From positions 368,921 to 432,920 of the forward strand of contig NZ_JAEMNV010000005.1 in the NCBI RefSeq assembly GCF_016482825.1: 64,000 bases of DNA, given 5' to 3'. Positions 2,868 to 48,539 of the stretch are shown piece after piece. A program made the translations under genes and the position numbers. The notes under the pieces were generated by a model, which was not told the origin of the DNA, did no database searches, and saw only the letters and a list, made by a program, of their open reading frames with translations. Within the stretch, counting starts at the first letter, position 1. The number at the start of each line of letters is the position of its first letter. The DNA comes from Antrihabitans stalagmiti (lineage in GTDB: Bacteria; Actinomycetota; Actinomycetes; Mycobacteriales; Mycobacteriaceae).

Positions 2868-3621
2868 CGGACCGACCAACCACACCTACCGGATCGGCTC
2901 CATACGGATAGGACCAGGCATCGGCGCGACGCCGCCGAGCGCCGCAAACCTCCCGGCAATCCGTCATCCAATACCCGACTTCGAGCGTTTGAACTGCATC
3001 GCGTTCGTCAGAATTTGCTGGCTCTAAACTGCAGGATGCAACTGCGGCTCGGCGACAGCGGTTCGCTGTACGCCGTTGTCACATCAGAAAGATTCCGAAG
3101 CCAATTCGATTAGCCGCAAGGGTTTCCGGGATCTCACCGCCCAGATTTCGCGGCTGCCCGTCCAAATACGCGCACTTGACGTCAACGATATCGAGAATGA
3201 CCAGCAACGGGTGATTACCGCGCACCTTTCATGCCGCGTTCGACAGGCAGAGGTCGACGTGCTGCGGGCACCCGACGATTGCATCCAGGTCACAATCAAC
3301 TATCAATAATAGTAGGAAGCCGACGGGCGAATCGGGCTGCAGGGGTCGCGTTCTATCGTCGCAGGCTCGTCCGATCTGCATGGAATATACACGTGCGCAA
3401 AGGCTTTGGGGTGCCTGATGCCGAGCCGCTGTGCGGGCACCACTCATCAAGTGCGCGGAGGACACTTGCAGCGACCGGTGCGCGATGCTTGCGTGACCGA
3501 TGAGGCCAGTGACACCAATGGTGCAGTAGTGCATAGTGGTGCGGCGTGGCGACTTGACCAAGTCGAAATTTGTCCAAGCTTCGCTGCACATTTATAGAAC
3601 TGACTCAGGAGGCTTTGGCAT
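2868..3621. other. Intergenic region and long leader of the first M23 gene
   Basis: About 750 bases without a convincing gene. A TTG-started frame at 3076-3309 (77 codons) has no ribosome site and resembles nothing I recognise. The region holds one BlaI-type dyad around 3298-3314 and a small perfect dyad GACTT-GACC-AAGTC at 3551-3564. The 308 bases between the BlaI dyad and the M23 start would be an unusually long leader if transcription begins near the dyad. Confidence 0.5.
3298..3314. promoter_or_regulatory. BlaI-type operator dyad, site 1
   Basis: Reads AACTA-TCAATAA-TAGTA: half-sites ACTA (3299-3302) and TAGT (3310-3313) with a 7-base spacer. It lies upstream of the M23 gene at 3622. It is one of seven copies of the same architecture in the first 21.4 kb. 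Confidence 0.6.
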
Positions 3622-4572
3622 ATGCGAGTTTCACCGATGCCGGGGCTGGCCCGTACTCGTAAGCGATGCACTGTCGGCGGTGCACTCGGCATCATGGTTT
3701 TGGGCGGTGTGCTGGCCGGTGCACCCGTCGTCTCTGCTGCGCCGAGTTACGCCCCACCGCTCGACCAACCAGCGGATTCGGATCCGTACCTTGTCCTGGC
3801 GATCGCGACGTTGGTGTCCGAGAGCCTTGTAACTGTTCAGGCCGACGGCTCGCTCGACGAGATCGCTGATGCCAGTTTGCAATTCACCGACTGTATGAGC
3901 GACGGGATCTATGAGCCGCCCGTGGGTGCAGCCACGCAGACCGCGAGCGGAGCGCTGTTCGAATGCGCAGCAGCGTTACAGGGTATCGATCCCATCGTGG
4001 GACGCAGACTGCTGGCGGCTCTGGACCTAGACCGCCTCGCTACTGTCCTTGACGCCGAGTCCATCCCCCACGACGGAGCCGTGCCACATTCACCCCTTTC
4101 GACGGCACCGTCGCCACCGGAATCCGACACCGGTACGACGCCCCAGCCATCGCCTCGAATCGACAAGGGATCTAGTTCGACGACGGTCCCACCAACCACC
4201 GGAACAGTTACTTCCCTCGTCGGTGACGGACGAGGACACGGCGGCATCGATATCGCGAACAAACTCGGAACTCCCATCGTCGCGGTCGCCGACGGGGAGG
4301 TGATCAGTGCTGGACCGGCGCAAGGTTACGGGCTGTGGGTGCGCATCCGCCACAATGACGGGACCGTCACTACGTACGGCCACAACCAGGGCAATCTCGT
4401 CTCGCTCGGGCAACGCGTGCGCACAGGGCAACAAATCGCCGTCGTGGGCAACCGCGGAGATTCATCGGGACCGCATTTGCACTTCGAGGTCGAATCCCCG
4501 TCGGGTCAGAAGGTCGACCCCACTGCGTGGCTTGCCTCCCGGGGTGCCGGAATCGCCGATCCCGACGAGTAG
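3622..4572 (+). CDS. Secreted M23 (LytM) peptidase-domain protein, copy 1
   Basis: 316 residues. An AGGAGG ribosome site sits about 10 bases before the ATG. An N-terminal signal peptide ends near VVSAAPSY. The next 120 residues contain two spaced cysteines (FTDCMSDG and LFECAAAL), likely a disulfide, then a Pro/Thr/Ser-rich linker. The C-terminal M23 domain shows the zinc ligands HGGID and HLHFE, so it may be an active endopeptidase acting on peptidoglycan cross-bridges. It closely resembles the protein at 52247-53248 in both domains and the one at 12381-13157 in the M23 domain. A BlaI-type dyad lies 308 bases upstream, suggesting coregulation with the copper/oxidase genes that follow. Confidence 0.88.
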   Translation: MRVSPMPGLARTRKRCTVGGALGIMVLGGVLAGAPVVSAAPSYAPPLDQPADSDPYLVLAIATLVSESLVTVQADGSLDEIADASLQFTDCMSDGIYEPPVGAATQTASGALFECAAALQGIDPIVGRRLLAALDLDRLATVLDAESIPHDGAVPHSPLSTAPSPPESDTGTTPQPSPRIDKGSSSTTVPPTTGTVTSLVGDGRGHGGIDIANKLGTPIVAVADGEVISAGPAQGYGLWVRIRHNDGTVTTYGHNQGNLVSLGQRVRTGQQIAVVGNRGDSSGPHLHFEVESPSGQKVDPTAWLASRGAGIADPDE

Positions 4573-4707
4573 CCGCGCGCGATCCCACCGATGATCGCCG
4601 TACCCGTGCCGCAAGCCCGCACATGGCGATAAGCGACCTCAGTCGGCAGCCCGTGCCGACTTCGGGAAGTACGGCGAGCCGAGACCTCCGGACCACCCGA
4701 GGGAAGG

Positions 4708-5217
4708 TCAGTCGTCGGGTGAGCGAAGTTCATCCTCTTTTGAACTCCCGAAAAAGGTGAGCGTCACCAGGGCGGTGGCGCCCACGACGATGAAGGTGTC
4801 GGCGAGGTTGAAGGTCGGCCACCAGCCGGTGTGCAAATAGTCGGTCACCACTCCATCGGGTAGCCGGTCGAGAAGGTTGGCGCTGGCGCCGCCCAGGATC
4901 GCGGCCAGCCCGAGCCGCCAGACGAGCCCGGCGCTGGGAGCAGTCCGCCAGCCGACGACGGCCACGGCGAAGGTGATGACGCCGGTGACGGTGAGCAGCA
5001 CCCAGGTGGGGGCGTCGGCGGCGATGGAGAACGCCGCACCCGGGTTGAACGCCAGCCGCAGGTCCACCGGCCCCGCCTCGATGGGCGCACCGGGCAGGGT
5101 GTTTGTGGCCCACGCTTTGATCGCCAAGTCGGTGGCCGCGAATGCTGCGGCGACCGCCAGCAGCCCGACCCGCCGGCCCAGGTGACGGTCGGCCCTCACC
5201 GGGTTCGCGTCGATCAT
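4708..5217 (-). CDS. lspA: Lipoprotein signal peptidase II
   Basis: 169 residues with four predicted membrane segments. The two catalytic aspartates are visible in NLLDRLPDG and FNLADTFI, the standard aspartyl-protease pair of LspA, which removes lipoprotein signal peptides after diacylglyceryl transfer. Its ATG overlaps the stop of the upstream metal ATPase by 4 bases (ATGA), so it is the third gene of an arsR-ATPase-lspA operon. A signal peptidase beside a soft-metal ATPase recalls the lead-resistance pbrA/pbrBC arrangement. It is probably an accessory copy rather than the housekeeping lspA, because it is tied into a metal operon. Confidence 0.93.
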   Translation of the reverse strand: MIDANPVRADRHLGRRVGLLAVAAAFAATDLAIKAWATNTLPGAPIEAGPVDLRLAFNPGAAFSIAADAPTWVLLTVTGVITFAVAVVGWRTAPSAGLVWRLGLAAILGGASANLLDRLPDGVVTDYLHTGWWPTFNLADTFIVVGATALVTLTFFGSSKEDELRSPDD

Positions 5218-7178
5218 TTCCCCGCCCCAACCGTGACCGAAGCCTGCCGCGGAGTTGTGTCCGGTACCGGGGCAAGAGCCTGCGCCTGTCCGGCGCGGAC
5301 ACCGTTGGCGATGACGACGATCTCGGCGAGCTCGTGCACCAGCACGACCGCGGCCAAACCGAGCACACCGAAGAGCGCCAATGGGATCAGCACGGTAATC
5401 AGCGCGAGGGACAGCCCCACGTTCTGCAACATGATCGACCGGGCGCGGCGAGCGTGATCGAGCGCCTGGGGCAGATGCCGCAGGTCTTCACCCATCAGAG
5501 CAACGTCGGCTGTTTCGATGGCGACGTCGGCGCCCATCGCGCCCATCGCGATACCGAGGTCCGCGGTCGCCAGCGCCGGCGCGTCGTTGACGCCGTCGCC
5601 GACCATGGCGGTGAACCGCTGCTTGCGCAGCTCGGCGACGATGCGGGACTTGTCTTCCGGGCGCATATCGGCATGGACGGTATCGATTCCGGCTTCGGCA
5701 GCCAATGCTTGGGCGGTGAGTTCGTTGTCGCCGGTGAGCATCGCGACCTGGCACCCGGAGGCGTGCAGGCGAGCGATCACCTCGGCGGCCTCCGGGCGTA
5801 GCTCGTCGCGCACGGCGACCGCGCCGATCACCCGGCCGTCGTCCTCGACCAGCACGGCGGTCGCCCCTGCTGCCTGCATCCGTTCGACGTCGGCGGACAG
5901 CGAGCCCGAAGCGAGCCATCCCGGACGGCCCAGCCGCACCGGGCGTCCGTCCATTCGACCGGTCAGCCCAGCACCGGTGACAGCTTCGACATCGGTGGCC
6001 GCACGCGGTTCGTCGACCGCGGCGAGGATGGCACGGGCGAGCGGGTGCTCGCTGCGCGCTTCCAGGGCTGCCGCGAGGGCGAGCACCTGGTCACGGTCGA
6101 CGCCGTCGACGGTGGCGACCTCGACGACGGCGGGCCTGTTCGCGGTCAGGGTGCCGGTCTTGTCCAGCGCGACGCCGCGAACCTTTCCGAGCGCTTCCAG
6201 TGCGGCACCGCCCTTCACGAGTACGCCCAGCTTGCTGGCCGCGCCGATCGCGGCGACGACGGTGACCGGCACCGCGATCGCCAGCGCACACGGCGACGCG
6301 GCCACCAGCACCACCAACGCGCGTTCGATCCAGGTCGCCGGGTCACCGAAGACGCTGCCCAGCAGGGCAATCGCCGCTGCAGTGATCATGATGCCCGGCA
6401 CCAGCGGCTTGGCGATCGTGTCGGCCAGCCGTTGCGCCTCGCCTTTGCGGGCTTGCTCGGCTTCCACGATCCGCACGATCCGCGCGAGGGAGTTGTCCTC
6501 GGCGGTGGCGGTGACCCGAACCTCGAGAACGCCGTTCCCGTTGATGGATCCGGCGAACACCTCGTCATCCGGTCCGGCCTCCACCGGCACGGATTCACCG
6601 GTGATGGCCGAAACATCGAGGGCGGTGCGGCCGTCGGAGATGATGCCGTCGGTGGCGAGGCGCTCACCGGGCTTGACCAGCATCCGGTCCCCGACTCGCA
6701 AGTCACCGGATGCCACCACGGTTTCGGTGTCGTCGCGCTGGACGGTGGCCTGCTCGGGGACCAAATTGAGCAGGGCACGCAGGCCGCGGCGGGTGCGGGC
6801 GACGGCGTATTCCTCGAGGCCTTCGCTGATGGAGAACAGAAACGCCAGCATCGCGGCCTCGCCGACCTCACCGAGGATGACCGCGCCGATCGCGGCGATC
6901 GTCATCAGCGTGCCGACACCGATCTTGCCTTTGGCCAAGCGTTTGAGCGTCGAAGGTACGAACGTGTAGCCACCCACGAGCAGGGCGGCGACCTCCAAAG
7001 TCACCTCCACCGGACGCGGGGCACCGAGCCAACCGGCGATCAGGGCGGCGAGCAGCAGGACGCCCGCGACGGCGGCCGCGCGTAGTTCGCTGACCTCCCA
7101 CAGCTTTTCAGGCTCATGCTCATCGGTCTCGCCATCGACGGCGGGTTCGTCGTGTCCGCATCCGCACGCGTCGCTCAC
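5214..7178 (-). CDS. P1B-4-type heavy-metal exporting ATPase
   Basis: 654 residues from a GTG that overlaps the stop of the regulator gene (GTGA). A longer in-frame extension to 7364 only antisenses the regulator and is discarded. A short Cys-rich head (ACGCGH) replaces a full HMA domain. The membrane core carries SPC instead of CPC at about residue 293, and the last helix contains HELAEIVV; both favour the P1B-4 subgroup (CoaT/CtpD/CtpJ-like). The phosphorylation motif DKTGTLT (about residue 337), TGES, the SEHPLA loop and GDGVNDAPAL are intact, so it should be active. Likely substrates are Zn, Cd, Pb, Co or Fe(II). The thiolate sensor encoded just upstream suggests Cd/Pb. Confidence 0.92.
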   Translation of the reverse strand: MSDACGCGHDEPAVDGETDEHEPEKLWEVSELRAAAVAGVLLLAALIAGWLGAPRPVEVTLEVAALLVGGYTFVPSTLKRLAKGKIGVGTLMTIAAIGAVILGEVGEAAMLAFLFSISEGLEEYAVARTRRGLRALLNLVPEQATVQRDDTETVVASGDLRVGDRMLVKPGERLATDGIISDGRTALDVSAITGESVPVEAGPDDEVFAGSINGNGVLEVRVTATAEDNSLARIVRIVEAEQARKGEAQRLADTIAKPLVPGIMITAAAIALLGSVFGDPATWIERALVVLVAASPCALAIAVPVTVVAAIGAASKLGVLVKGGAALEALGKVRGVALDKTGTLTANRPAVVEVATVDGVDRDQVLALAAALEARSEHPLARAILAAVDEPRAATDVEAVTGAGLTGRMDGRPVRLGRPGWLASGSLSADVERMQAAGATAVLVEDDGRVIGAVAVRDELRPEAAEVIARLHASGCQVAMLTGDNELTAQALAAEAGIDTVHADMRPEDKSRIVAELRKQRFTAMVGDGVNDAPALATADLGIAMGAMGADVAIETADVALMGEDLRHLPQALDHARRARSIMLQNVGLSLALITVLIPLALFGVLGLAAVVLVHELAEIVVIANGVRAGQAQALAPVPDTTPRQASVTVGAGK

Positions 7179-7567
7179 GCCCGCACCCCCTCGTTGGTGT
7201 CCGACGTGGCGATGGAGTCGGTGCCGTAGTTGGGGCACAACGCGACCGCGTTGCCAGTTGCCGCGAGGAGGGTTTCCGCCGAGGCGAGCAGGTCCATCAG
7301 CTCCGGCCGCGCCAGGCTGTAGAAGACCTGCCGACCCTGCGGACGGCCCTGCACCAGGCCGCAATCGCGCAGGCAGGCCACGTGCGCCGACACAGTGGAC
7401 TGTGCCAGCCCCAACTCACCCATCAGGTCAGCCACCCGTGCTTCGCCGCACGCGAGTCGGTGCACGATCGATAATCTTGTGCCGTCGGACAGGCTGTGGA
7501 ACAACGCCACTGCCGGATCCAGCCCGGCCGCGCCGGCCAGACACCCCTCACCATGATTCATCGTCAT
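7175..7567 (-). CDS. ArsR/SmtB-family metal sensor, CmtR-like
   Basis: 130 residues with a winged-helix domain (VADLMGELGLAQSTVSAH). The recognition helix continues into CLRDCGLV, two cysteines four residues apart, and a third cysteine occurs near the C terminus in ALCPNYG. This matches the Cys57/Cys61/Cys102 layout of mycobacterial CmtR, which releases DNA on Cd or Pb. It is the first gene of the sensor-ATPase-lspA operon and diverges from an MmpL gene. Perfect inverted repeats in the 124-base divergent region (7558-7577 and 7627-7643) are good operator candidates. The ArsR family is certain; the ligand is inferred from the cysteine pattern. Confidence 0.9.
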   Translation of the reverse strand: MTMNHGEGCLAGAAGLDPAVALFHSLSDGTRLSIVHRLACGEARVADLMGELGLAQSTVSAHVACLRDCGLVQGRPQGRQVFYSLARPELMDLLASAETLLAATGNAVALCPNYGTDSIATSDTNEGVRA

Positions 7568-7646
7568 CTAACGATGATAACCAGATTGACCGTTGATATC
7601 CATAGCCGGGCAGATTAATCTCAACTCAACGATTACATCGTTGACA
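7558..7646. promoter_or_regulatory. Divergent operator/promoter between arsR and mmpL
   Basis: Two perfect inverted repeats: TCATCGT-CATCTA-ACGATGA at 7558-7577, spanning the arsR start codon, and CAACGAT-TAC-ATCGTTG at 7627-7643. A -35-like TTGACA (7641-7646) faces the MmpL gene and overlaps the second repeat. Binding of the ArsR protein could repress both directions. Confidence 0.6.
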
Positions 7647-7690
7647 CACGATCATAAGGTCGATTCGACGCATCTGGTGAGGAGAAATCC

Positions 7691-9994: not shown

Positions 9995-10011
9995 AACTAT
10001 TGTTCGTAGTA
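9995..10011. promoter_or_regulatory. BlaI-type operator dyad, site 2
   Basis: AACTA-TTGTTCG-TAGTA, core 9996-10010, located 58 bases before the CopD-CtaG start at 10069. Confidence 0.65.
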
Positions 10012-10068: not shown

Positions 10069-11982
10069 GTGGGTGGTACTTCACGCCGAACCACGGGCGC
10101 GTCGCGAGCAGGACAACCCCTGCGCATGCTGGCTTGGGCGGCAACGCTCGCAGCGCTGGTTGCGACCATGCTGGCCGGATTGTCGTCTGCGACGGCCTTG
10201 CAACTGCTCGGCTTGCCCGACCCTGGCGCCCTGACCAGTTTCGGACTTCCGGCGGCGACAGCCGCAGGCGAGGTGGCCGCGGTCGTCGCAGTCGGTTCGC
10301 TGCTGCTGGCCGCTTTCCTAGTGCCGCCGCAGCGGTCCGGCATCCTCGACGTCGACGGATATGTGGCTGTGCGCACTGCATGCACCGCGGCGATCGTGTG
10401 GGCACTTTGCGCCGTGGCCATGGTGCCGCTATCGATATCCAGCAGCTCTGGCCTTCCGGTGGCCGAGGTGCTGTCGAACCCCGCGGAACTACCGAGGGTG
10501 ATTGGTGAGCTCGAGGGTACTTCAGCGTGGGCATGGACTGCGGTCATCGCGCTGATCTTGGCCGTATTTTGCCGAAACACGTTGCGCCACTCGTGGACTC
10601 CGATGTTGTTGACCATCGCACTCCTCGGTTTGATGCCTCGCGCTGTGAGCGGGCACTCTTCGGCGGGCGGCGGGCACGACGTGGCAACCGACAGCCTGAT
10701 CCTGCACGTGGTCGCTGCGGCTCTGTGGGCGGGCGGACTGGCCGCGCTACTGATGCACGCGCGTCGCGGAGGCAGTCATCTCGACGTTGCCGCGAACAGG
10801 TTCTCCGTCGTCGCTCTTGCCGGGTTCGCGACGATGGCCGTGAGCGGGTTGCTCAACGCGATGGTTCGGGTGCCGGTTGTGGCCGTGCTGTCGTCTACCT
10901 ACGGCGCCCTGGTGTTGACCAAGCTCGTGCTACTAGCTGGGCTTGGTGTGATCGGTTGGCGGCAGCGACGCGTCGCGATCCTCAGGCTCACGCGCGACCC
11001 CACTGACCGCAGCACATTCGTACGGTTCGCGATCATCGAGTCCACCGTGTTTGCAGTCGCGATCGGTGTGGCCGTGGCGCTCAGCCGTACTCCGCCTCCG
11101 GCCGACAGCGACCCCGAGCTGACAGCGCTGGAAGCAGTGTTGGGCTATGCCCTCGATGGTCCGCCCACCCTCGCACGACTCGTCATGCAATGGCGTTTCG
11201 ACCTCCTGGCTGGCTCCGCAGCAATCCTGTTCGCCGCGCTATATCTGTGGGCCGTGCACACCCTCCGCCGTCGCGGGGAGAAATGGCCCGGTTTTCGCAC
11301 TGCGATCTGGGTGAGCGGGTGCGCTGTATTGTTGCTCGTATCCTCATCCGGGGTAGGTCGCTATGCGCCTGCGTTGTTCAGCGTGCACCTGGCCAGTCAG
11401 TCCGTCCTTGCACTTGTCGTCCCCCTGTTTTGGGTGCTGGGCGCTCCGCTCACCCTTGCTGCCTCCTGGCTGCGCCCGTCGACCGCCGACGCCGCGCCCG
11501 GCCTCCGGGAATGGCTGGTCGCGGCCGCGGTTGGTCCCGTCGCACGATTTCTCACCCACCCTGCGATAACGGTGATCATGTTGCTGGGCTCCTTGTTCGG
11601 CGTCTATTTCAGCGGGGTCTACGAAGCAGTTGCCGGATCTCATGTCGCCCACGTTGTCATGATTTGGCTGGTCCTTGCCGCCGGGTCCGCGTTCTATTGG
11701 GTCGTTCTAGGAGCGGATTCGATCCCCCGACGGTGGTCGCGGCGGACCCGTATTGCGACCGCGATCACCGCCTTCGTCGGGTACGTCAGCTTGGGGATCG
11801 CCGTGATGGAGTCCGAGCGCGTCTTCGGAGCTACATTCTTCGAATCGCTACCACTGGACTGGCGCGGTGATCTGGCTGCCGACCAGCGGCTCGGCGGCTG
11901 GGTCGCACTGCTCGTCGGGGTGCCGTCTCTACTGTTTGCGATGGTCACCGCGGGCGCCAGGCGCGGTTCAGGGCAGCGCTAG
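10069..11982 (+). CDS. CopD-CtaG fusion membrane protein (copper import / cytochrome oxidase assembly)
   Basis: 637 residues from a GTG with AGGAGG ten bases upstream; an alternative in-frame GTG at 10060 is too close to that site. The open frame extends back to 9520 but that part only overlaps the mmpL gene. The N-terminal half (about residues 30-340) is a CopD-like multi-helix copper-transport domain. The C-terminal half (about 370-630) is a caa3-type CtaG assembly domain that helps deliver copper to oxidase subunit I. The same fusion is known in mycobacteria (Rv0102-like). A BlaI-type dyad just upstream and the ctaD gene downstream indicate a role in building a copper-dependent oxidase. 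Confidence 0.9.
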   Translation: MGGTSRRTTGASRAGQPLRMLAWAATLAALVATMLAGLSSATALQLLGLPDPGALTSFGLPAATAAGEVAAVVAVGSLLLAAFLVPPQRSGILDVDGYVAVRTACTAAIVWALCAVAMVPLSISSSSGLPVAEVLSNPAELPRVIGELEGTSAWAWTAVIALILAVFCRNTLRHSWTPMLLTIALLGLMPRAVSGHSSAGGGHDVATDSLILHVVAAALWAGGLAALLMHARRGGSHLDVAANRFSVVALAGFATMAVSGLLNAMVRVPVVAVLSSTYGALVLTKLVLLAGLGVIGWRQRRVAILRLTRDPTDRSTFVRFAIIESTVFAVAIGVAVALSRTPPPADSDPELTALEAVLGYALDGPPTLARLVMQWRFDLLAGSAAILFAALYLWAVHTLRRRGEKWPGFRTAIWVSGCAVLLLVSSSGVGRYAPALFSVHLASQSVLALVVPLFWVLGAPLTLAASWLRPSTADAAPGLREWLVAAAVGPVARFLTHPAITVIMLLGSLFGVYFSGVYEAVAGSHVAHVVMIWLVLAAGSAFYWVVLGADSIPRRWSRRTRIATAITAFVGYVSLGIAVMESERVFGATFFESLPLDWRGDLAADQRLGGWVALLVGVPSLLFAMVTAGARRGSGQR

Positions 11983-12041: not shown

Positions 12042-12058
12042 GACTATGCGAAATAGTT
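12042..12058. promoter_or_regulatory. BlaI-type operator dyad, site 3 (autoregulatory)
   Basis: GACTA-TGCGAAA-TAGTT, core 12043-12057, the dyad of the M23-blaI-M56 operon itself. The M23 start lies about 320 bases downstream. Confidence 0.6.
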
Positions 12059-12380
12059 GTACGGTGTTGGCTGGGCCGTCACCGTTCCGTTATCCGAAGT
12101 GTCCGGGAAGCTCACAGACCACAGCATTCCACCAACCGTGAGGGTCGTTTTGGGACGTCATCGCAAGCCTGAATCCGAAGTCACGAACACAGCCAGGCAT
12201 TCGACGCAAACCGGCGAGCAAACGAGATCGCACGGCCTACACGTGCAACGGGCACTTCATGTGGTTGCGCCGCTCCCCCACGACGATGCCCTCGACCAGA
12301 CCGAGCGAACAACAATCACACTCGCCGGTTATATCGGGTCGGCACCCTGGGAGCGAGTTTTTCATGATCCCGCGCCGACC

Positions 12381-13157
12381 ATGGCGCCGACGAGTATCGA
12401 CGCATTTTCAGCTCGGTCGACCGCACAGCGGGTCACGCGGCGCCAACGAGGCGCGCACCGTTCGCAGGATCGGTCACGCGCGGGCCGTGTGCTTGTGGCC
12501 TCGGTCGTCACCGGAGGCATCTTTGCGGGATCGGCGGCGATCGCAGGAGCGCACCCCCCGGGCTCACATCCCACCGACGATGTCATGCCGCAACCGGACG
12601 CCGTCGGGGCGCGAGCAGTCGAGGGTGGCTCGCAGGTACTGACAATGCCCGATCCGGCCGACCTCACTGCACTCACCACGCCCCTGCGACTTGCCCAACG
12701 CCGCGATGAGGAACGCAACGCCCGCGACGCCGCGGCGCGCCGGCCGGTGTCGGTGTTTCCGGTCGCCGGCGTGCTGACGTCTAGTTATGGTCCACGGTGG
12801 GGATCGACGCACTACGGCCTCGATATTGCCAACTCCATCGGAACTCCGATCGTGTCGGTGACCGATGGTGAGGTGATCGAGTCTGGCCCCGCGGCGGGTT
12901 TCGGGTTGTGGGTGCGTATTCGACAGGACGACGGCACAATCGGAATCTACGGACACATCGACCAGGCTCTCGTCTCCGCAGGAGAGCGGGTGAAAGCGGG
13001 TGACCAAATCGCAACCGTGGGCAATCGGGGACAATCTACGGGCCCGCACTTGCACTACGAGGTGTGGGAACGTGACGGGAGTAAGGCAGATCCCATGGCG
13101 TGGCTCAGCGCTCGAGGAGTGCCGACTGCCGCTCTCGCATCAGGAATCGGCTCATGA
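12381..13157 (+). CDS. Secreted M23 (LytM) peptidase-domain protein, copy 2
   Basis: 258 residues from the ATG at 12381, which directly precedes an Arg-rich region and a hydrophobic signal segment ending in AIAGAHPP. The frame is open back to 12057 but that extension (TTG start) looks non-coding. No good ribosome site is visible, so the start is uncertain. The C-terminal M23 domain has its zinc ligands in HYGLD and HLHYE. The central part is short and lacks the two cysteines of copies 1 and 3. Its stop overlaps the blaI start by 4 bases (ATGA), so a cell-wall peptidase is cotranscribed with a regulator family normally linked to cell-wall stress. Confidence 0.82.
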   Translation: MAPTSIDAFSARSTAQRVTRRQRGAHRSQDRSRAGRVLVASVVTGGIFAGSAAIAGAHPPGSHPTDDVMPQPDAVGARAVEGGSQVLTMPDPADLTALTTPLRLAQRRDEERNARDAAARRPVSVFPVAGVLTSSYGPRWGSTHYGLDIANSIGTPIVSVTDGEVIESGPAAGFGLWVRIRQDDGTIGIYGHIDQALVSAGERVKAGDQIATVGNRGQSTGPHLHYEVWERDGSKADPMAWLSARGVPTAALASGIGS

Positions 13158-13540
13158 CAAGGGGTCGAAGGGGATACCTGAAGGGCCTCGGCGAACTCGA
13201 GGCCGACGTCATGAACGTGTTGTGGGCGACGCCGGAACCGTTGACCGTGCGCGACCTCGTGGAGCGCACGAGCGAGCGAAAGCAATCCGCCTACACCACG
13301 ATCTTGACGGTGGTGACCCACCTGTACGAGAAAGGGTGGGTGGTACGAGATAAACAAGGGCGGGGCTATCTGTACCGGCCGACCCGCACCCGCGAGGAAG
13401 CGACTTCACGCGCGCTCCGCGACATCCTCGACGCGAGCACCGACTCGGCGGCGGTCCTGCTGCACCTGGCGAAAACCGTATCCGCCAGCGAATCGGAGGC
13501 GCTTCGTCGCGGACTGTCCGGTAAAGACGCACGATCGTGA
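13154..13540 (+). CDS. blaI: BlaI/MecI/CopY-family transcriptional repressor
   Basis: 128 residues. The N-terminal winged helix (LGELEADVMNVLW, then SAYTTILTVVTHLYEKGWV) is typical of BlaI/MecI/CopY repressors, followed by a helical dimerisation arm. It starts on the ATGA overlap with the M23 gene and its stop overlaps the GTG of an M56 membrane protease. That is the classic repressor-sensor pair, in which the protease inactivates the repressor on signal. BlaI/MecI proteins bind TACTA-type dyads. Seven ACTA-N7-TAGT dyads lie in this block, one before its own operon. No beta-lactamase gene is in the window, so I infer that it controls the copper/oxidase genes. Confidence 0.93.
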   Translation: MTRGRRGYLKGLGELEADVMNVLWATPEPLTVRDLVERTSERKQSAYTTILTVVTHLYEKGWVVRDKQGRGYLYRPTRTREEATSRALRDILDASTDSAAVLLHLAKTVSASESEALRRGLSGKDARS

Positions 13541-14484
13541 TTCTCGCGGTGACGCTGCTCGTCGCGGCGGCGTTCAGTGCCATCGTTATGCCGATAGTGC
13601 TGCGGCGGTTGATGTTCCGGGTTTCGCCAGTCGTAGCGTTGACCGCCTGGCTGGGCACCGTGGCCGGATTGTTCGTCCTCACCGCAGCGGCCGTCGCGGT
13701 ACTCGCCTGGCCAGCCGCGCACGCCCCCGCCGAAGGACCACTCGAGACTATGGTGCGGTGCCTGACCGCCCTGCAACACGCCCTTCGTCCCTTGATCGGT
13801 GAGATTGCAACCGGCGCCGTCGTGGCCATCGCCAGCGTGATCATCGCCCGCGTCTGCGTAGCGGCCCGTCGCCATCATCGGGTGCGCACCAAAATCCGGG
13901 ATTTCCACCGCGACGTCGTCGCGATCGTCGCTCGCACCGAGACGGGCAGGAACCGGGTGATGTGGCTCGACCATCCATTGCCCATGGCGTACAGCATCGA
14001 CGGTAGGCCTGGCTACGTCGTCGCCACCGAAGGCCTTGCCCGATGCCTGACCGACAGTCAGCAGGCCGCGGTCATCGCGCACGAACACGCCCATTTGCGC
14101 GCACGCCATCACCGCATCCTCAGTGTGTGCGAAGTGCTTGCTGCCGCACTCCCGCGCGTCCCGCTGTTGGCGGCAGCACCGCGTGCCGTCGAGACCCTCA
14201 TCGAACTCGTCGCAGATCACGCCGCCGCCCAGGCAACCAGCGCGTACTCGATGAGCACTGCCTTACGGGCAGTGTCCACATCAAGCGCATCCCGCCCCCA
14301 ACTCTCGCTCGGCCTCCTCAGCGAGTCGATCAGCTTCCGACTGCGCTGCCTCGACGAGGCACCGTCCACCGGTGGCAAATCTCGCACCATCTACGCCGCC
14401 GCGATCGCCGTCCTACTTCCTGTCATCGCCGCCGCTGCAGCGCTGGCGGCCTCAGCCGGGGCGGCGTGCCTGATCGTCGCTTGA
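13537..14484 (+). CDS. M56-family membrane metalloprotease (BlaR1-like, without penicillin sensor)
   Basis: 315 residues starting on a GTG that overlaps the blaI stop. There are two or three N-terminal helices, a zinc motif HEHAH at residues 182-186 followed by LRARHH, and a C-terminal helix. The family cleaves or destabilises the cognate BlaI repressor. Full BlaR1 is about 600 residues with a C-terminal beta-lactam-acylated domain; that domain is absent here, as in short actinobacterial homologues. The inducing signal must therefore enter another way, and the cotranscribed M23 protein or copper are possible inputs. The protease assignment is firm; the signal is unknown. Confidence 0.88.
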   Translation: MILAVTLLVAAAFSAIVMPIVLRRLMFRVSPVVALTAWLGTVAGLFVLTAAAVAVLAWPAAHAPAEGPLETMVRCLTALQHALRPLIGEIATGAVVAIASVIIARVCVAARRHHRVRTKIRDFHRDVVAIVARTETGRNRVMWLDHPLPMAYSIDGRPGYVVATEGLARCLTDSQQAAVIAHEHAHLRARHHRILSVCEVLAAALPRVPLLAAAPRAVETLIELVADHAAAQATSAYSMSTALRAVSTSSASRPQLSLGLLSESISFRLRCLDEAPSTGGKSRTIYAAAIAVLLPVIAAAAALAASAGAACLIVA

Positions 14485-14518
14485 ACCACGGGGTCGACTG
14501 AATCGCACAAAGATCCAT

Positions 14519-14537
14519 CTACTATTTTGATTAGTAG
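14519..14537. promoter_or_regulatory. BlaI-type operator dyad, site 4
   Basis: CTACTA-TTTTGAT-TAGTAG, core 14521-14535, the longest perfect version (6-base arms). It lies 45 bases before the ctaD start. Confidence 0.7.
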
Positions 14538-14581
14538 AATCGATCCAGGGCGAACGCCCCGACGACTGGAAGCTGAGGCTC

Positions 14582-16372
14582 ATGACTGCGGTCGACACCA
14601 AACTCACCGCTACGAGGCCTTTTCCGGCCCGGGTGGGACCGAAGGGTTCCTTCCTGTGGAAGATGCTGACGACCACCGATCCCAAGCTGCTCGGCATGAT
14701 GTATCTCGTCACGGCGGTCAGTTTCTTCCTCATCGGCGGCTTAATGGCGCTGCTCATGCGTTCCGAGCTAGCGGTGCCGGGCCTGCAATTCTTGTCCAAC
14801 GAGCAGTACAACCAACTCTTCACCATGCACGGCACGATCATGCTGCTGTTCTACGCGACGCCGATCGTATTCGGCTTCGCGAACGTCGTGCTGCCGCTGC
14901 AGATCGGTGCGCCGGACGTCGCGTTCCCGCGTCTGAATGCCTTCAGCTATTGGCTGTTCCTGTTCGGCGCGACAATGGCGACCGCAGGCTTCATCACCCC
15001 CGGTGGTGCTGCCGAGTTCGGTTGGACCGCGTACGCGCCGCTGAGCAGCGCGCTGTACTCCCCCGGCGTTGGCGCAGACCTCTGGATTCTCGGGCTGGCC
15101 GTGTCCGGTTTGGGCACCATTCTCGCTGCGGTCAACATGATCACCACGGTCGTCTGTCTGCGTTGTCCCGGTATGACGATGTTCCGGATGCCGATCTTTA
15201 CCTGGAACATCCTCGTCACGAGCATCCTTGTGCTGCTGGCGTTTCCGCTGCTCACTGCGGCGTTGATGGGCCTCGCGGCAGACCGTCATCTCGGCGCGCA
15301 CATTTTCGATCCTGCCAACGGCGGCGCGCTGCTCTGGCAGCATTTGTTCTGGTTCTTCGGACACCCCGAGGTTTATATTATCGCGCTGCCGTTCTTCGGG
15401 ATCGTGTCCGAAATCTTCCCGGTGTTCAGCCGCAAGCCGATCTTCGGTTACACCACCTTGGTCTATGCGACGCTCGGTATCGCGGCCCTGTCGATTGCGG
15501 TATGGGCGCACCACATGTACGCCACCGGCGCTGTCCTACTGCCATTCTTTTCCTTCATGACCTTCCTTATCGCCGTGCCGACCGGAGTGAAATTCTTCAA
15601 CTGGATCGGCACCATGTGGAAAGGTCAGTTGACGTTCGAATCGCCCATGTTGTTCTCCGTCGGTTTCCTCGTCACCTTTCTGTTCGGCGGCCTGTCCGGC
15701 GTTATCCTGGCCAGCCCGCCACTGGATTTCCAGGCCACGGACTCCTACTTCGTCGTCGCCCACTTCCATTACGTGCTTTTCGGCACCATCGTGTTTGCCA
15801 CTTATGCGGGGATCTACTTTTGGTTCCCGAAAATGACGGGGCGAATGATGGACGAGCGGCTGGCGAAGTGGCACTTCTGGACCACCTTCATCGGCTTCCA
15901 CACCACCTTCCTCGTGCAACACTGGTTGGGCAACGAAGGCATGCCGCGCCGCTATGCGGACTATCTGCCAACGGACGGTTTCTCGAGTCTCAACTTGATT
16001 TCTACCGTTGGTTCGTTCGTCCTCGGAGCCTCCACCTTGCCGTTCGTCTGGAACGTCTTCAAGAGCTTCCGGTATGGCGAGGTCGTGACCGTCGACGATC
16101 CGTGGGGATATGGCAACTCGCTCGAATGGGCGACGTCGTGTCCGCCGCCGCGGCACAACTTCTACGAGCTGCCGCGCATTCGGTCCGAGCGTCCTGCGTT
16201 CGAACTGCATTACCCGCACATGATCGACCGGATGCGCGTCGAGGCCCACGTCGGCTGGGGCTCGGCGAAGCATTCCTCCGAAATAGCGCAGTTGTCGTCC
16301 GACGCCCATCCGACGCCTGACTCCGTAGAGGCAGGCGTCGACGACACCGGCCATCCCCCCGCCGCCCGCTGA
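14582..16372 (+). CDS. ctaD: Cytochrome c oxidase subunit I (heme-copper oxygen reductase)
   Basis: 596 residues with twelve predicted membrane helices. Heme and CuB ligands are visible: the heme a histidine in MHGTIML, the CuB histidine and cross-linked tyrosine in HPEVYIIA (His261), the CuB pair in WAHHMYAT, and heme ligands in VAHFHYVL. This is the catalytic subunit of an aa3-type oxidase. No subunit II or III gene is in the window, so it may swap into the chromosomally encoded complex. A perfect BlaI-type dyad directly precedes it, and CtaG, CopC and CopD partners surround it. Expression when copper or oxidase supply changes is plausible. Confidence 0.96.
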
Positions 16373-16911: not shown

Positions 16912-17037
16912 CTCGACGAGTGGTGTTCGCGTAGCCGACGCTGCCGTAGCTGCCCGCGACGGCTCGAAGACAGCACCGGGTGGGAAGGAGCTCCCAAGGC
17001 CCCCACCACCCCCTGCGTCGACCTGCGCTACACGTCC

Positions 17038-17682
17038 CTAGCCCTCGACGTCGGTCGGTTTGCGGGCCAGGACCCGGAACGTGATCCCGCCCAGACCGGC
17101 ACGCTGCACGTGCTCCAACACGAACCCGGCCTCACGCAAGAACGGCACCGGATCCCGGGTCAAATGATCGGTGTCGAAGCGTAGCCGCACCGAGTCGATC
17201 CGCCGCATCAGCCACGCCACAACCGGATTGGTCGACGGTCCGTGTTCGGCCAGCACGAAAAGACCACCCGACCGCAACACGCGAAAAGCCTCAGCACTGG
17301 CCTTGCTCGGGTCCGGGATAACGCAGAAGGTGTAGGTCGACACCACCGTGTCCACCGACGCGTCCGGCAGTTCGAGCGATTGCACATCGCCTTTGAGCAG
17401 GTCCACGGACGCCAACTGCTGGTCTGTCACACGTCGGCGGGCAATGTCGAGCATCCCGTCGGATAGGTCGACACCGATCACATGCTCGACGAGGGGACCG
17501 TAATGCAGCAAGTTCATGCCGGTACCGACCCCGAGATCGACCACCTGACCACGTGCGTGTGCGACCGCCCACTGCCGCGCCCGGCCCAGTACATACCGTT
17601 CGAACAACGCCATTTGCCGATCGAACTGGCGCGCTTTCCGATCGAACGCCTGCTCGACGTCAACATTCTCTGATCGACTCAT
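17038..17682 (-). CDS. Class I SAM-dependent methyltransferase (UbiE/phospholipid-type)
   Basis: 214 residues with the SAM-binding glycine loop VVDLGVGTGMNLL near residue 48, the acidic ribose-binding end of strand 2 (VIGVDLSDGML) and the post-motif strand VVSTYTFCVI. The C-terminal part resembles small-molecule or lipid methyltransferases. It is transcribed against its neighbours and is not coupled to them. The substrate cannot be told from sequence; quinone or phospholipid methylation are both possible. Confidence 0.85.
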   Translation of the reverse strand: MSRSENVDVEQAFDRKARQFDRQMALFERYVLGRARQWAVAHARGQVVDLGVGTGMNLLHYGPLVEHVIGVDLSDGMLDIARRRVTDQQLASVDLLKGDVQSLELPDASVDTVVSTYTFCVIPDPSKASAEAFRVLRSGGLFVLAEHGPSTNPVVAWLMRRIDSVRLRFDTDHLTRDPVPFLREAGFVLEHVQRAGLGGITFRVLARKPTDVEG

Positions 17683-17914
17683 CGTGACCGTCCCCCCGCC
17701 GCCGCTGGTGAATCCGACGTCACCGACATTACCTAGCTCTCCCGTTTACGACGCGAATAAACTGCTTCGGTGACGACGATGACAAGTCTCGGACAGGAAT
17801 CCTGTGCTGCAGCTCTTTCATCCCGAACCCCCAACAGATCAGCGCGGTCGTTCCACTGACGGATCGCTCGGGGAGGTCGTCGCAACAGAAGCGATGGGCG
17901 CGCTCGCCGATTGA
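17683..17914. other. Intergenic region, no gene seen
   Basis: Short AT-richer stretch between the divergent methyltransferase and copC genes. It leads into the BlaI-type dyad at 17915-17931. No other structure recognised. Confidence 0.4.
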
Positions 17915-17931
17915 TACTATGCATATTAGTA
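17915..17931. promoter_or_regulatory. BlaI-type operator dyad, site 5
   Basis: TACTA-TGCATAT-TAGTA, core 17916-17930, perfect 5-base arms, about 55 bases before the copC start. Confidence 0.7.
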
Positions 17932-17983
17932 GCAAGTCCATGGCCCGCGCCGTGGCACTGACCAAGCGCGACGAAGGAGTGCC

Positions 17984-18577
17984 GTGGGGCGAGGTAGGAG
18001 TCACGTGAAAGGTCTGCTTGGCACGGTGCTGATCGGTCTACTGCTTCTACTTGGCGGCGGTACCGCCGGCGCACACAGTGAACTCGTGAGTTCCACGCCG
18101 GCAGCGGATTCCATCCTCGAAAGTTCGCCCGCTGCCGTCGAATTGGTATTCAATCAAGCCATTCAGCAGCAATTCGCCACGGTGAAGGTGGTGGCAGCCG
18201 ATGGAGGACAATGGGGGGAATCGACACCGACCGTGGCGGGCGAACGTGTCCAGATAGCTATCCGTGCCGGACTTCCGGTCGGCGACTTCACCGTCGGCTA
18301 TCGCGTCGTGTCACAAGATGGTCACCCGATCAGCGGGTCCTACACGTTCCGGGTCGCATCGCCGCAGATTGCACACCCAGGCATCGGAACCACCCCCGCC
18401 TCGGTGACGCCACCGGCAGCGCCGCAGTCCGGTTCTGCCGACGATGGCGACAACATGATGACCACCTGGACGCTTGCCGCAGCGGTCGCGGGTCTTGTGG
18501 TCGGCGCAATCGTGGTCGTCTTCCGTGGGACCCGCAAAGACACGAACACGGACCCCGCCGACACCAAGCACTCCTGA
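17984..18577 (+). CDS. copC: CopC-domain periplasmic copper-binding protein with C-terminal anchor
   Basis: 197 residues from the GTG at 17984 (AAGGAG upstream); an in-frame GTG at 18005 with GTAGGAG is equally good. After the signal peptide the mature protein would begin AHSELVSSTPA, giving an N-terminal histidine of the kind CopC uses for Cu(II). A second conserved histidine lies in DGHPISG. A Pro/Ser linker and one membrane helix follow, so the domain is tethered outside the membrane. It is followed after 16 bases by a CtaG gene, and a BlaI-type dyad lies upstream. It probably hands copper to the oxidase assembly path. Confidence 0.92.
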   Translation: MGRGRSHVKGLLGTVLIGLLLLLGGGTAGAHSELVSSTPAADSILESSPAAVELVFNQAIQQQFATVKVVAADGGQWGESTPTVAGERVQIAIRAGLPVGDFTVGYRVVSQDGHPISGSYTFRVASPQIAHPGIGTTPASVTPPAAPQSGSADDGDNMMTTWTLAAAVAGLVVGAIVVVFRGTRKDTNTDPADTKHS

Positions 18578-18593
18578 TAGCGGTCCGATACTT

Positions 18594-19544
18594 ATGATGG
18601 TCGTCGCTGATTCGGTGCGCGTTCCCGAGGCGCCTCCTACGTTGGGCACGTTGCTCGGGTGGTACCCCCAACCGATTCCGCTCCTGCCCCTCCTGGGACT
18701 TGCGCTGGCCGTCCTGTATTGCTGGGGCCGGTTGCGCCTTGGATCCGTGAGGCCGTCGCTACCGTGGCCGTGGTGGCGAACAGCGTCATTCCTGTTCGGC
18801 TGTGCGCTTTTGGTCGCCGTGACCGGGCTGGGGATGGAGGGATACGGGTACGAGCTGTTCAGCGTCTGGATGTTTCAGCATTTGACGCTGTCGATGGCGA
18901 TCCCGCCGCTGCTGGTGATGGGATCGCCGGGCAGCTTGCTGCTGCGTGCCACGCCCCATCGAGGCTTGGGCAGGATCGTGTTGATTGTTGCTCTTGTCGG
19001 GCTTCGAAGTCGGATGGCTCGTGTGCTGTTGCATCCAGCGGTGACCATCTCTCTGTTCCTGTTCAGCTACTACGGCCTGTACCTGACCTCGATCCTCGAC
19101 ACCGTCGGATCGACATGGGCGGGTCACACTTCGGTCGAATTGTTCTTCCTGGCCACGGGCGTACTATTCATCGTTCCGGTCCTATCGACAGGGCCATTGC
19201 CCGTCAGGCAGAGCAACCTCGGACGGTTCTTCGACATTTTCCTGGAGATGCCGCTGCACGTGTTTTTTGGGCTGATTCTGATGATGGCGACCACACCGAT
19301 GCTCGATCTGTTCGCCGACCCACCCGCAAGCTGGGGTATAGATCCGCTCGACGATCAACAACTCGCCGGAGGCCTTGCCTGGTCCTATGGTGAACCGGTA
19401 GGCCTGGTCATCGTGATCGTTTTCGCGGTGCGGTGGAACCGCGACGAACGGCGCAGTGCAGCGGCGACCGAACGCCGCGCGGAACTCCACGGCGACCTGG
19501 AGCTCAACGCTTACAACGACTACCTCAAAGAACTCCGCGGCTGA
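18594..19544 (+). CDS. ctaG: CtaG-family cytochrome c oxidase assembly protein
   Basis: 316 residues from the ATG at 18594 (or ATG 18597). The frame is open further upstream but there it overlaps copC. It is a multi-helix membrane protein of the caa3_CtaG family, with the helix-loop pattern FQHLTLSMAIPPLLVMG and SYYGLYLTS. It is cotranscribed with copC and runs convergent to the DUF305 gene at 19573. It is the second CtaG domain in the window, the first being fused to CopD at 10069. Its role is copper insertion into the CuB site of oxidase subunit I. Confidence 0.9.
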   Translation: MMVVADSVRVPEAPPTLGTLLGWYPQPIPLLPLLGLALAVLYCWGRLRLGSVRPSLPWPWWRTASFLFGCALLVAVTGLGMEGYGYELFSVWMFQHLTLSMAIPPLLVMGSPGSLLLRATPHRGLGRIVLIVALVGLRSRMARVLLHPAVTISLFLFSYYGLYLTSILDTVGSTWAGHTSVELFFLATGVLFIVPVLSTGPLPVRQSNLGRFFDIFLEMPLHVFFGLILMMATTPMLDLFADPPASWGIDPLDDQQLAGGLAWSYGEPVGLVIVIVFAVRWNRDERRSAAATERRAELHGDLELNAYNDYLKELRG

Positions 19545-19572
19545 CCGTTTCCACGGCCCCTGGGGTACGCGA

Positions 19573-20298
19573 TCAGTTCATCGGGAGTGGCACCGTGTTC
19601 TTGTCCTCCAGCATCCGTCGAATAGTGTCGGACTCGGCGGTCTGAGTTCTGACGATGCTGTCGGCGAGTTGGGCAACCGCGGGAACGACCGCATTGTCGC
19701 GGCCGTAACGGGCCATTGCCAGTCCACCTTCGTGGTGTCGCAAAAGCAGTTGTAAGAACATCGCGTCGAACGCGGTTCCCGAATTCTGACGCAATTTGCG
19801 TATCTCGTCCGAAGTCGCCATGCCGGGCATTGTGGTTGCGCTCCCGAGTGTGGACGATTCCATCCCCGGCATCGAGTGCGCCTCCGACTGTCGAATATGG
19901 TCTTCCTCGCTCATCCACGTCATTGAGTCGCCGACAGGAAGAGTCGGACGATTCCACAACACCAACCAGCCTTGCATCGTGCCCACTTGGCTCTGCTGGC
20001 TGGTCAACACGTCGAACGCCAAGGTGCGCACTGCCGGGTCGACCGCCTGGGACAGCGCGATCGCCGACATCTCGATCGCCTGATTGTGATGGATCGCCAT
20101 GTCCTGAGCGAAACCTATATCGATCGACCCTGGCGAGGGCGGCTGGTCGTCGAGCAGCTTTTGCGTCCACAATCCCAGAACAACGCCGGCCAGTAGAACG
20201 ATCACGATCCCGAGCGCGAGCAGTGCCACCGACCGACCGGTGACGGCCAGATAGTGCCGTCGACCCTCCACCGTGGGTATCGTCCGCTCAGTTTCCAC
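19573..20298 (-). CDS. DUF305 membrane-anchored protein
   Basis: 241 residues from a GTG that overlaps the end of the DUF3105 gene by 11 bases. One N-terminal membrane helix is followed by a ferritin-like DUF305 helical domain with two histidine-pair motifs (MAIHHNQAIEM and LLRHHEGGLAM) and a Met/His-rich stretch between them. DUF305 proteins recur in copper operons and are thought to bind metal outside the membrane. It is the second gene of a two-gene operon with a BlaI-type dyad upstream. A paralogue is at 50748 and a relic at 44702. Confidence 0.88.
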   Translation of the reverse strand: METERTIPTVEGRRHYLAVTGRSVALLALGIVIVLLAGVVLGLWTQKLLDDQPPSPGSIDIGFAQDMAIHHNQAIEMSAIALSQAVDPAVRTLAFDVLTSQQSQVGTMQGWLVLWNRPTLPVGDSMTWMSEEDHIRQSEAHSMPGMESSTLGSATTMPGMATSDEIRKLRQNSGTAFDAMFLQLLLRHHEGGLAMARYGRDNAVVPAVAQLADSIVRTQTAESDTIRRMLEDKNTVPLPMN

Positions 20299-21061
20299 CG
20301 GCGTCTCCCGGTGCGGGGTCGACCATCGGGGCCGCGTCCACGCCGGGCGCCGTGGACTCGAAGGGTGGCGGGTTGTCCGGGTCGAAACCGCCGTTTGTCG
20401 CACAGCTCGCGCCCGGCTCCGGGCTGATGGTGGGGTTCTGGCGCAATGCAGTGACGAACTGATCAATGCGGTCGTCCTCGATTCCCTCCAGCTGAAGTTG
20501 GCGACCCCACGACTGCAACGACACCGCAGAACTCATCCCGGGATAGGGCGACATCAAAGTGTAGGGCTGTCCACTCACCTGCGTTTCGAGCGCATCGATG
20601 TCGGCCTGGCTCAGCAGATCTCTGTTGTATGTGATCCACACGGCACCATGTTCGAGGGAGTGGACGGCAGTTTCGCTGCGGATCGGCAGCGGGTACACGA
20701 TCCCGGTGCAGGTCGCCCAATTTTGATCGTGCGGTCCGCCGAAGGGAGGCGACTTGTCGTAGGCCACGCGCTGCGGAGCCGCGACATGGCGGCCAGCCGG
20801 ATAGTCGGCCTTGACGACGCCATCGATACCTCCGGACGGGTCGGGATTGTCCGAGCTGGGAGTGAATTTCGCCGTCTCTCGCTGGTCGATGGCCTTTGGG
20901 ACCAAGTTGTAGGCGATGACCCCGACCAAGAGAACGGCGACGATTGCGAAAACGACCACGTCCCAGGGGATCCGCCGCCGCCGGGTCAGCGCGTCGAGGT
21001 TCTTACCCGCCCGTCTTCGTTCCGGTCGCCCCCGCCCGCTCTTGTTCGACCCAATGGACAC
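20288..21061 (-). CDS. DUF3105 membrane-anchored protein
   Basis: 257 residues from a GTG with a GAAGGG ribosome site; the frame extends to 21280 but would then cover the BlaI dyad and promoter. There is an Arg/Lys-rich N terminus, a single membrane helix (about 40-62) and an outside domain with TCTGIVY and HSLEHGAVW, the conserved Cys and His motifs of DUF3105. Such proteins often accompany DUF305 proteins. The function is not established; metal binding outside the cell is plausible. Confidence 0.85.
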   Translation of the reverse strand: MSIGSNKSGRGRPERRRAGKNLDALTRRRRIPWDVVVFAIVAVLLVGVIAYNLVPKAIDQRETAKFTPSSDNPDPSGGIDGVVKADYPAGRHVAAPQRVAYDKSPPFGGPHDQNWATCTGIVYPLPIRSETAVHSLEHGAVWITYNRDLLSQADIDALETQVSGQPYTLMSPYPGMSSAVSLQSWGRQLQLEGIEDDRIDQFVTALRQNPTISPEPGASCATNGGFDPDNPPPFESTAPGVDAAPMVDPAPGDAGGN

Positions 21062-21132
21062 AGGGCATCCCTTCGTCTTCCGTCGTCGTCGGCAGGTGCG
21101 CAGATCCACACCGGACCGCGCGTCCCGACATC

Positions 21133-21149
21133 TACTAACCAGAATAGTT
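21133..21149. promoter_or_regulatory. BlaI-type operator dyad, site 6
   Basis: TACTA-ACCAGAA-TAGTT, core 21134-21148, 73 bases upstream of the minus-strand DUF3105-DUF305 operon. Confidence 0.6.
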
Positions 21150-21341
21150 GACACTAACAAGGACGGCATCGGCGGCACGCCACGGTGACGGACAAACCCA
21201 CGCGGAGTTTCTGAGCATCCGAGCAGGGCGGCCGAGGGCGGGGCGTTGATTGCGCGCGCATAGACGGTGCAGGACAGCACATTCGGTGATCCACGACCTC
21301 CCGCAAGCCGCCACTTGTTCGACCCAACACACAGGGTGAAC

Positions 21342-21358
21342 TACTATTTCGAATAGTA
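21342..21358. promoter_or_regulatory. BlaI-type operator dyad, site 7
   Basis: TACTA-TTTCGAA-TAGTA, core 21343-21357, perfect 5-base arms, 40 bases before the TlpA-like gene. With site 6 it serves a divergent promoter pair. Confidence 0.7.
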
Positions 21359-40054: not shown

Positions 40055-42325
<2,271 letters not shown>

Positions 42326-48534: not shown

Positions 48535-48539
48535 GCTGC

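Follow-up and report, generated by a model that had tools for sequence, protein, structure and literature searches.

Putative BlaI-type operators before copper, oxidase and envelope genes in Antrihabitans stalagmiti and related, often plasmid-borne islands

BlaI-family repressors accompanied by membrane proteases have mostly been named by analogy to beta-lactam resistance. The 64,000-nucleotide stretch of Antrihabitans stalagmiti analysed here (contig NZ_JAEMNV010000005.1, positions 368,921 to 432,920; hereafter the window) encodes such a pair, a BlaI-family repressor followed by an M56-type membrane metalloprotease, among genes for copper handling and cytochrome oxidase assembly that are preceded by copies of a short inverted repeat. 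The question raised by this locus is what the pair controls. We conclude that a BlaI-type repressor very probably controls a copper set, often plasmid-borne, that carries extra copies of oxidase and envelope-building genes. The repressor family is known, and the regulon type would be a variation on it; among the literature matches listed (titles and abstract openings in the open literature) there was no BlaI regulon with ctaD, ctaG or copC, and one may be described elsewhere.

Dyads in the window and in related loci

The dyad ACTANNNNNNNTAGT (ACTA-N7-TAGT) was found as seven exact copies in the window, at the positions reported in the original prediction (Table 1). Shuffled versions of the window held 0.10 sites on average, and none of 100 shuffles reached seven. 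When up to one mismatch was allowed, nine matches were obtained against 2.42 expected, the extra two lying at 39409 and 47654. By our own gene calls all seven dyads fall in non-coding DNA, and a first-order Markov model of the window's non-coding DNA gave a mean of 0.02 sites and never more than one across 300 runs. Pfam matches and gene calls bear out the seven downstream units named in the prediction. Its description of the arms as mostly TACTA/TAGTA was loose, since TACTA is present in four and TAGTA in five of the seven. The genome-wide scan that it had proposed returned 12 exact dyads in 6.39 Mb, and thus seven of the 12 fall within 18 kb. Eight of the 12 lie near BlaI genes; one of the five outside the window is located about 700 bp upstream of a second BlaI gene.

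To score the flanks independently of the searched core, a position weight matrix (PWM) was built from the sites of other genomes only, and the positions outside the core were compared with 20,000 random window positions. All seven dyads of the window score above the 99th percentile (0.6 to 9.4 vs -0.38), as does the dyad near the second BlaI gene (10.7). The remaining four sites of the genome score -0.1, -1.2, -6.6 and -10.7; of these only the -0.1 site passes the percentile, and narrowly. Scanning the whole window with the full PWM revealed no further comparable site (next non-overlapping site 8.1, weakest of the seven 18.6). Chance as the origin of the seven dyads is ruled out by the shuffles, the flank scores and the Markov model. 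Scans of the window for Rfam families and tRNAs gave no matches.

The site before the first M23 peptidase gene is the furthest of the seven from its gene, with about 310 bp to the start of the open reading frame at 3622 and 381 bp to the called start at 3694. Distances of 245-443 bp separate the operator from orthologues of this gene in four relative loci (L065, L066, L071, L074). No clear extra or small gene was seen when the reading frames of this long leader were checked by eye.

The window BlaI was searched in 301 genomes of its taxonomic family, and 245 had a match at E <=1e-15. Eighty stretches of at most 20 kb were taken, 78 from this search and two from the search that gave the four BlaI proteins of the genome. 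The loci were chosen by BlaI similarity, with the best 41 rows in full and the weaker rows as a selection. Genes in relatives were called with a simple script of our own, and the BlaI identity classes differ slightly between analyses because the queries differed in length.

The 40 loci with the closest BlaI (765 kb) contain the dyad 166 times with spacer 7, 119 times with spacer 10 and 23 times with spacer 13, and at most four times with any other spacer from 0 to 20. Judging from the flanks, we read spacers 10 and 13 as extended ACTACTA/TAGTAGT arms, and they were dropped as separate motifs. Removal of repeats and of the own-genome locus left 121 distinct sites in the closest loci. Twenty loci with an intermediate BlaI (396 kb) hold 98 N7 sites and 20 with a distant BlaI (390 kb) hold 11; whole-genome counts in 30 of these genomes range from 4 to 33. 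The dyad spans about 23 bp, with the consensus AAnTACTATGnnnCATAGTAnTT in relatives (75 oriented sites). Of the 64 tetramers composed of three A/T and a single G/C, each scored as an N7 dyad across 59 loci, ACTA occurs 263 times, the next 32 times and the median tetramer twice. Across 60 loci, all 264 sites avoid the bodies of called genes; 236 of them have a called start no more than 350 bp away and 28 do not. The 2.5 kb upstream of blaI contain an N7 site in 31/33 closest, 21/32 intermediate and 9/21 distant rows, near-copies included.

The operator flanks differ between BlaI subgroups. In close homologues, most of which have TVVTHL in the putative recognition helix (placed by analogy with the family), the preference is for ACTAT and A at -3; intermediate homologues, mostly with TVLDNL or TVMDNL, prefer CTACTA. 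Among ten homologues with the VLQRL helix of the Mycobacterium tuberculosis type, six (L112, L113, L115, L116, L117, L119) show TACTAC-N5-GTAGTA at 12 bp ahead of the gene, in four distinct sites, which is likely an autoregulatory operator; four (L110, L111, L114, L129) have no exact N7 site. The subgroup comparison used 34, 19 and 6 hand-chosen loci with 96, 76 and 4 distinct sites. It leaves aside L083-L088, L091, L092 and others, and L095 in the intermediate set has a helix of the other type.

The repressor and its protease

The window BlaI has 128 residues and no cysteine in its translation, and therefore no metal site of the CopY type. CopY of Enterococcus and Streptococcus belongs to the same Pfam family (PF03965) and acts on copper genes, and CopY/TcrY proteins carry a C-terminal cysteine cluster for Cu/Zn. 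The window BlaI differs from them in lacking cysteine, in being partnered with a protease and in its score of 45 bits against the CopY_TcrY model TIGR02698 (cut-off 121.95). E. hirae CopY is described in PMC9195940, where copYZ on a plasmid of Streptomyces mirabilis is reported to have conferred no metal tolerance.

The pair resembles the BlaI/MecI-BlaR1/MecR1 systems of staphylococci in combining a PF03965 repressor with an HExxH membrane protease and in having an operator before its own operon. In contrast to BlaR1/MecR1, the window M56 protein has no penicillin-binding sensor, and the targets here are copper, oxidase and envelope assembly genes. The repressor also scores far below the cut-offs of the NCBIfam MecI/BlaI resistance models (20-25 bits vs 180-250).

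The closest solved structure is 2g9w (E 5e-18), which we take to be the M. tuberculosis BlaI homologue (Rv1846c), and the two proteins share the AYTT start of the putative recognition helix. The M. tuberculosis type differs in its VLQRL helix, in having either TACTAC-N5-GTAGTA or no exact N7 site, and in lacking a many-operator island. PMC12565901, PMC7924339 and PMC8265638 assign sigC, along with genes within or next to the ATP-synthase operon, to the M. tuberculosis BlaI regulon. The original prediction called such pairs usually tied to beta-lactams, and this holds in part, as the family also includes these genes and the copper genes of CopY among its targets.

Two BlaI proteins of Clostridium thermocellum bear on the geometry of the site. 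According to PMC8457756, DNA affinity purification sequencing (DAP-seq) gave GTCTAT inverted repeats 5 bp apart for BlaI_0696, a geometry equal to that of ACTAT-N5-ATAGT, and GACTAT for BlaI_1845. The same paper describes single repeats as probes in electrophoretic mobility shift assays and considers the paired dyads at the targets to be required. The two proteins differ from the present case in their three and one target operons, mainly sensor or signalling genes and a putative peptidoglycan gene.

The window M56 protein has 315 residues, an HExxH motif and a downstream E-x3-D, and no penicillin-binding sensor domain was detected in it by Pfam. H182, E183, H186, E223 and D227 are kept in 55/55 non-redundant sequences. 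A sequence search of the PDB returned a single weak match (E 0.06). Residues H62, E66, C75 and H81 (window numbering) lie between the second and third hydrophobic segments as judged by eye, a stretch that by BlaR1 topology we take to be outside. H62, C75 and H81 occur together in 36/76 M56 rows, and 28 of these 36 rows belong to loci that match at least two of six copper/oxidase queries vs 2 of the 40 others; the rows are related, and one gene can match two queries as CtaG and CopD-CtaG share a domain. With this loop set, found mainly in copper-oxidase islands, M56 becomes a candidate sensor of metal or redox state.

Variant arrangements were also seen. In L064, L067, L069 and L070, which have one or two sites, a 644-654-residue protein with no confident Pfam family follows the operator, and the M56 lacks H62 and H81. 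The M23-BlaI pairs of the genus in L088, L073, L079 and L082 (about 9.8-10.9 kb) have one matching dyad and no M56 match in the locus.

Target genes and the history of ctaD

Across the islands the operator stands before ctaD, ctaG, copC, copD, DUF3105, cytochrome c and disulfide assembly, LD-transpeptidase, M23 and Lgt/LspA/Lnt genes. The dyads are thus conserved before the same genes elsewhere, a check that had been suggested with the prediction. Assigned by similarity to window proteins, 229 targets include M23b (26), CtaD (22, where a gene with two sites counts twice), CopD-CtaG (15), CopC (13), BlaI (12), CtaG (8), DUF3105 (8), LspA (7), TlpA (5) and fewer of others. The window queries left 100 of the 229 unlabelled, ten of these being the window's own. 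A Pfam tally of 183 non-redundant targets, covering the best 25 of 34 and the best 25 of 32 families in two listings, yielded M23 (20), CtaG (14), DsbA (11), YkuD LD-transpeptidase (10), TlpA-type (10), cation efflux (9), PF03965 (9), CopC (8), Lnt (7), CopD (7), DUF3105 (7), LspA (5), COX1 (5), NlpC/P60 (5), DsbD (4), Lgt (2), ResB (2) and multicopper oxidase (2). Viewed across the islands, the regulon is wider than oxidase and copper genes: the predicted control of these units is supported, and its limitation to them is not, as envelope, disulfide and lipoprotein targets are also present. PLSDB contains 67 plasmid records with a BlaI at E <=1e-20, 47 of them from Rhodococcus; annotated examples of the island are found on plasmids of R. 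pseudokoreensis and on pREL1 of R. erythropolis PR4.

The genome has two copies of COX1, two of LspA and one of COX2. The island CtaD scores above the cut-offs of NF050116 (1009.8 vs 880 bits) and TIGR02891 (716.3 vs 670.75 bits), is 92% identical to the genome's other copy and is its sister in a phylogenetic tree, with support 100/99. This tree holds 32 proteins, namely 30 of 43 places in 15 genomes (13 left out) and the two own copies, and a copy was labelled as host when no N7 site lies within 400 bp upstream. The island label needs five changes, gains and losses counted alike, vs a mean of 10.8 in shuffles, and at least four are forced by well-supported branches. Island copies are more clustered than shuffled labels, partly through near-copies. 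As at least four changes are forced and the island copies do not form one clade, the most economical reading is that host ctaD was captured several times, or that conversion recurred. Island ctaD copies that came from the host again and again, or were converted, and yet stand under a single operator would make an unusual evolutionary pattern, and one that can be tested.

According to PMC6593411, a commentary, copper in E. coli blocks the acylation of lipoproteins, inhibits LD-transpeptidases and interferes with disulfides. The target list would fit a replacement set for such copper-sensitive processes. This suggests a different kind of metal tolerance, in which replacement copies of damaged machines are provided besides pumping the metal out. 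The E. coli Cpx/NlpE system, also treated in that commentary, is alike in outline, as damage to lipoprotein maturation, including that by copper, is sensed and answered. It involves unrelated proteins and is a two-component system, whereas here a repressor-protease pair, often on plasmids, would do so.

Mechanism, alternatives and neighbouring genes

The prediction that a BlaI/M56-type pair controls the oxidase-assembly and copper units is supported by the enrichment of the motif, its placement before orthologues, the sites upstream of blaI, the tracking of subgroups and the DAP-seq geometry. Within the reach of sequence evidence, regulation by the BlaI family is established, and we hold with high confidence that a BlaI would be the binder of the dyads. 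To the explanation as a whole, in which BlaI acts on the seven dyads, M56 provides relief, and the units serve copper handling together with spare copies, we assign a probability of about 0.8.

A dimer of the window BlaI would bind the dyad before seven units, its own M23-blaI-M56 operon included, and conservation and family precedent suggest that the bound repressor keeps them off. The M56 protein, devoid of a beta-lactam sensor, probably senses extracytoplasmic metal or envelope stress. Copper is the best candidate, and we give it about even odds of being the signal. M56 would then remove BlaI by proteolysis, as BlaR1 and MecR1 do. Derepression would supply the copper-handling CopC, CopD and CtaG as well as presumed spare extracytoplasmic machinery. 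In the window this machinery is oxidase subunit I together with thiol-disulfide/cytochrome c assembly; relatives add lipoprotein maturation and LD-transpeptidases. We advance more tentatively, at less than even odds, that the BlaI-M56 regulon is mobile, detects damage of the copper type beyond the membrane through the H62/E66/C75/H81 loop of M56 and brings partly host-derived spare isoenzymes (oxidase subunit I, cytochrome c/disulfide assembly, Lgt-LspA-Lnt, LD-transpeptidases) for copper-poisoned processes, host-type ctaD having come repeatedly under the same operator by capture or conversion.

Several points weigh against this explanation. For this BlaI subfamily we came across no data on binding, expression or phenotype. 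An N7 site within 2.5 kb upstream is missing in 2/33 closest, 11/32 intermediate and 12/21 distant BlaI rows, and 17/28 short loci from a class-wide BlaI search (L133-L160, of which the first and a few others belong to the own family) have none, the other 11 having one. Since BlaI similarity decided which loci entered the comparison, and many of them are near-copies, the counts do not represent independent events. The window units have a single dyad apiece, in contrast to the paired dyads of the C. thermocellum targets. The window M56 has no Pfam M56 match at E <=0.01, matching only PF01435 (M48), and its AlphaFold model from four sequences is poor, with a predicted local distance difference test score (pLDDT) of 45. 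The argument from copper sensitivity derives from E. coli. Within the window, no operator precedes the lspA unit, the gene for the HMA-bearing P-type ATPase (40055) or that for the CopC-CopD fusion (46606).

The genome encodes four PF03965 proteins, and therefore a paralogue could share the sites: the operators might be real and be worked by another BlaI, such as that of the M23-BlaI pair on contig C1, or by several. That paralogue (C1:732148) has its own matching dyad, the one with the flank score of 10.7, upstream of an M23 gene, and a similar pair with one dyad and no M56 match is present in three other genomes of the genus. We consider this unlikely, as the window BlaI is encoded inside the island behind one of the operators and the islands of other genera bring their own BlaI with their own operators. 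Genomes G001-G003 of the same genus have the M23-BlaI pair, yet hold 4, 6 and 4 sites, scattered over the genome save for one close pair in G002. The dyad might instead be a promoter or other structural element, as TACTAT resembles a -10 box and is compatible with the loose TAnnnT consensus. This is very improbable for a symmetric dyad of fixed spacer, and in 75 sites no -35-like element is conserved at any set distance from it; a general promoter motif is ruled out by this absence and by the mere 12 copies in the genome, eight of which are near BlaI genes.

A more serious alternative, although still doubtful, is that BlaI controls the units in response to cell-wall or beta-lactam stress, with the M23 and LD-transpeptidase genes as the core and the copper genes as cargo. 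Classic BlaI/MecI systems do answer beta-lactams, and M23 (20), YkuD (10) and NlpC/P60 (5) are frequent among the 183 targets. CtaG, CopC, CopD and CtaD are frequent targets too, however, no beta-lactamase or penicillin-binding protein family appears among the best 25 of 34 and 25 of 32 target families, and the M56 is without a sensor domain. The finding provides a large BlaI subfamily with an operator defined by sequence and with targets that form a coherent list, and these targets would be predictable from sequence alone. The regulon also offers a hypothesis for several uncharacterised proteins of the plasmid islands.

Table 1. Putative operators and genes of the regulon in the window (positions within the window)
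Feature	Position	Strand	Context	Basis
BlaI operator 1	3299..3313		before M23 peptidase copy 1, ~310-bp leader	exact dyad, PWM
M23 peptidase copy 1	3622..4572	+		PF01551, E 1.2e-31
BlaI operator 2	9996..10010		before CopD-CtaG	exact dyad, PWM
CopD-CtaG fusion	10126..11982	+	copper import / oxidase assembly	PF05425, PF09678; start from gene caller
BlaI operator 3	12043..12057		before M23-blaI-M56 operon (putative autoregulation)	exact dyad, PWM, blaI-upstream comparison
M23 peptidase copy 2	12261..13157	+	first gene of regulator operon	PF01551; start uncertain
BlaI-family repressor	13154..13540	+		PF03965, 90.9 bits vs gathering cut-off 22.6
M56-type membrane metalloprotease	13537..14484	+		HExxH, E-x3-D; loop H62, E66, C75, H81; orthologues annotated M56
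BlaI operator 4	14521..14535		before ctaD	exact dyad, PWM
ctaD	14582..16372	+	aa3 oxidase subunit I, second copy	PF00115; NF050116 over cut-off
Protein after ctaD, 179 aa	16372..16911	+	no family	homologues in 9/40 relative loci
BlaI operator 5	17916..17930		before copC-ctaG	exact dyad, PWM
copC	17984..18577	+		PF04234
ctaG	18594..19544	+		PF09678
DUF305 protein	19573..20298	-		PF03713
DUF3105 protein	20288..20959	-		PF11303; start uncertain, frame runs further upstream
BlaI operator 6	21134..21148		before DUF3105-DUF305	exact dyad, PWM; weakest of seven
BlaI operator 7	21343..21357		before tlpA-ccdA	exact dyad, PWM; strongest of seven
TlpA/ResA-like thioredoxin	21398..22051	+		PF00578
CcdA-like protein	22048..22854	+		PF02683, 26.9 bits, just below cut-off 27.1

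The protein encoded directly after ctaD has no Pfam or NCBIfam match. Further metal-type genes of the window without an operator encode a cation efflux protein (33019-34143), the HMA-bearing P-type ATPase (40055-42325), a second P-type ATPase (42408-44636) and the CopC-CopD fusion (46606-48693), and these probably answer to other regulators. A third M23 peptidase gene (52247-53248) is likewise operator-free. The same is true of the Rieske, ZIP-like and multicopper oxidase genes and an ArsR gene at 22944-25542 and 25717-26046, and a block of the Rieske/ZIP-like/multicopper oxidase type also adjoins the island on R. erythropolis pREL1.

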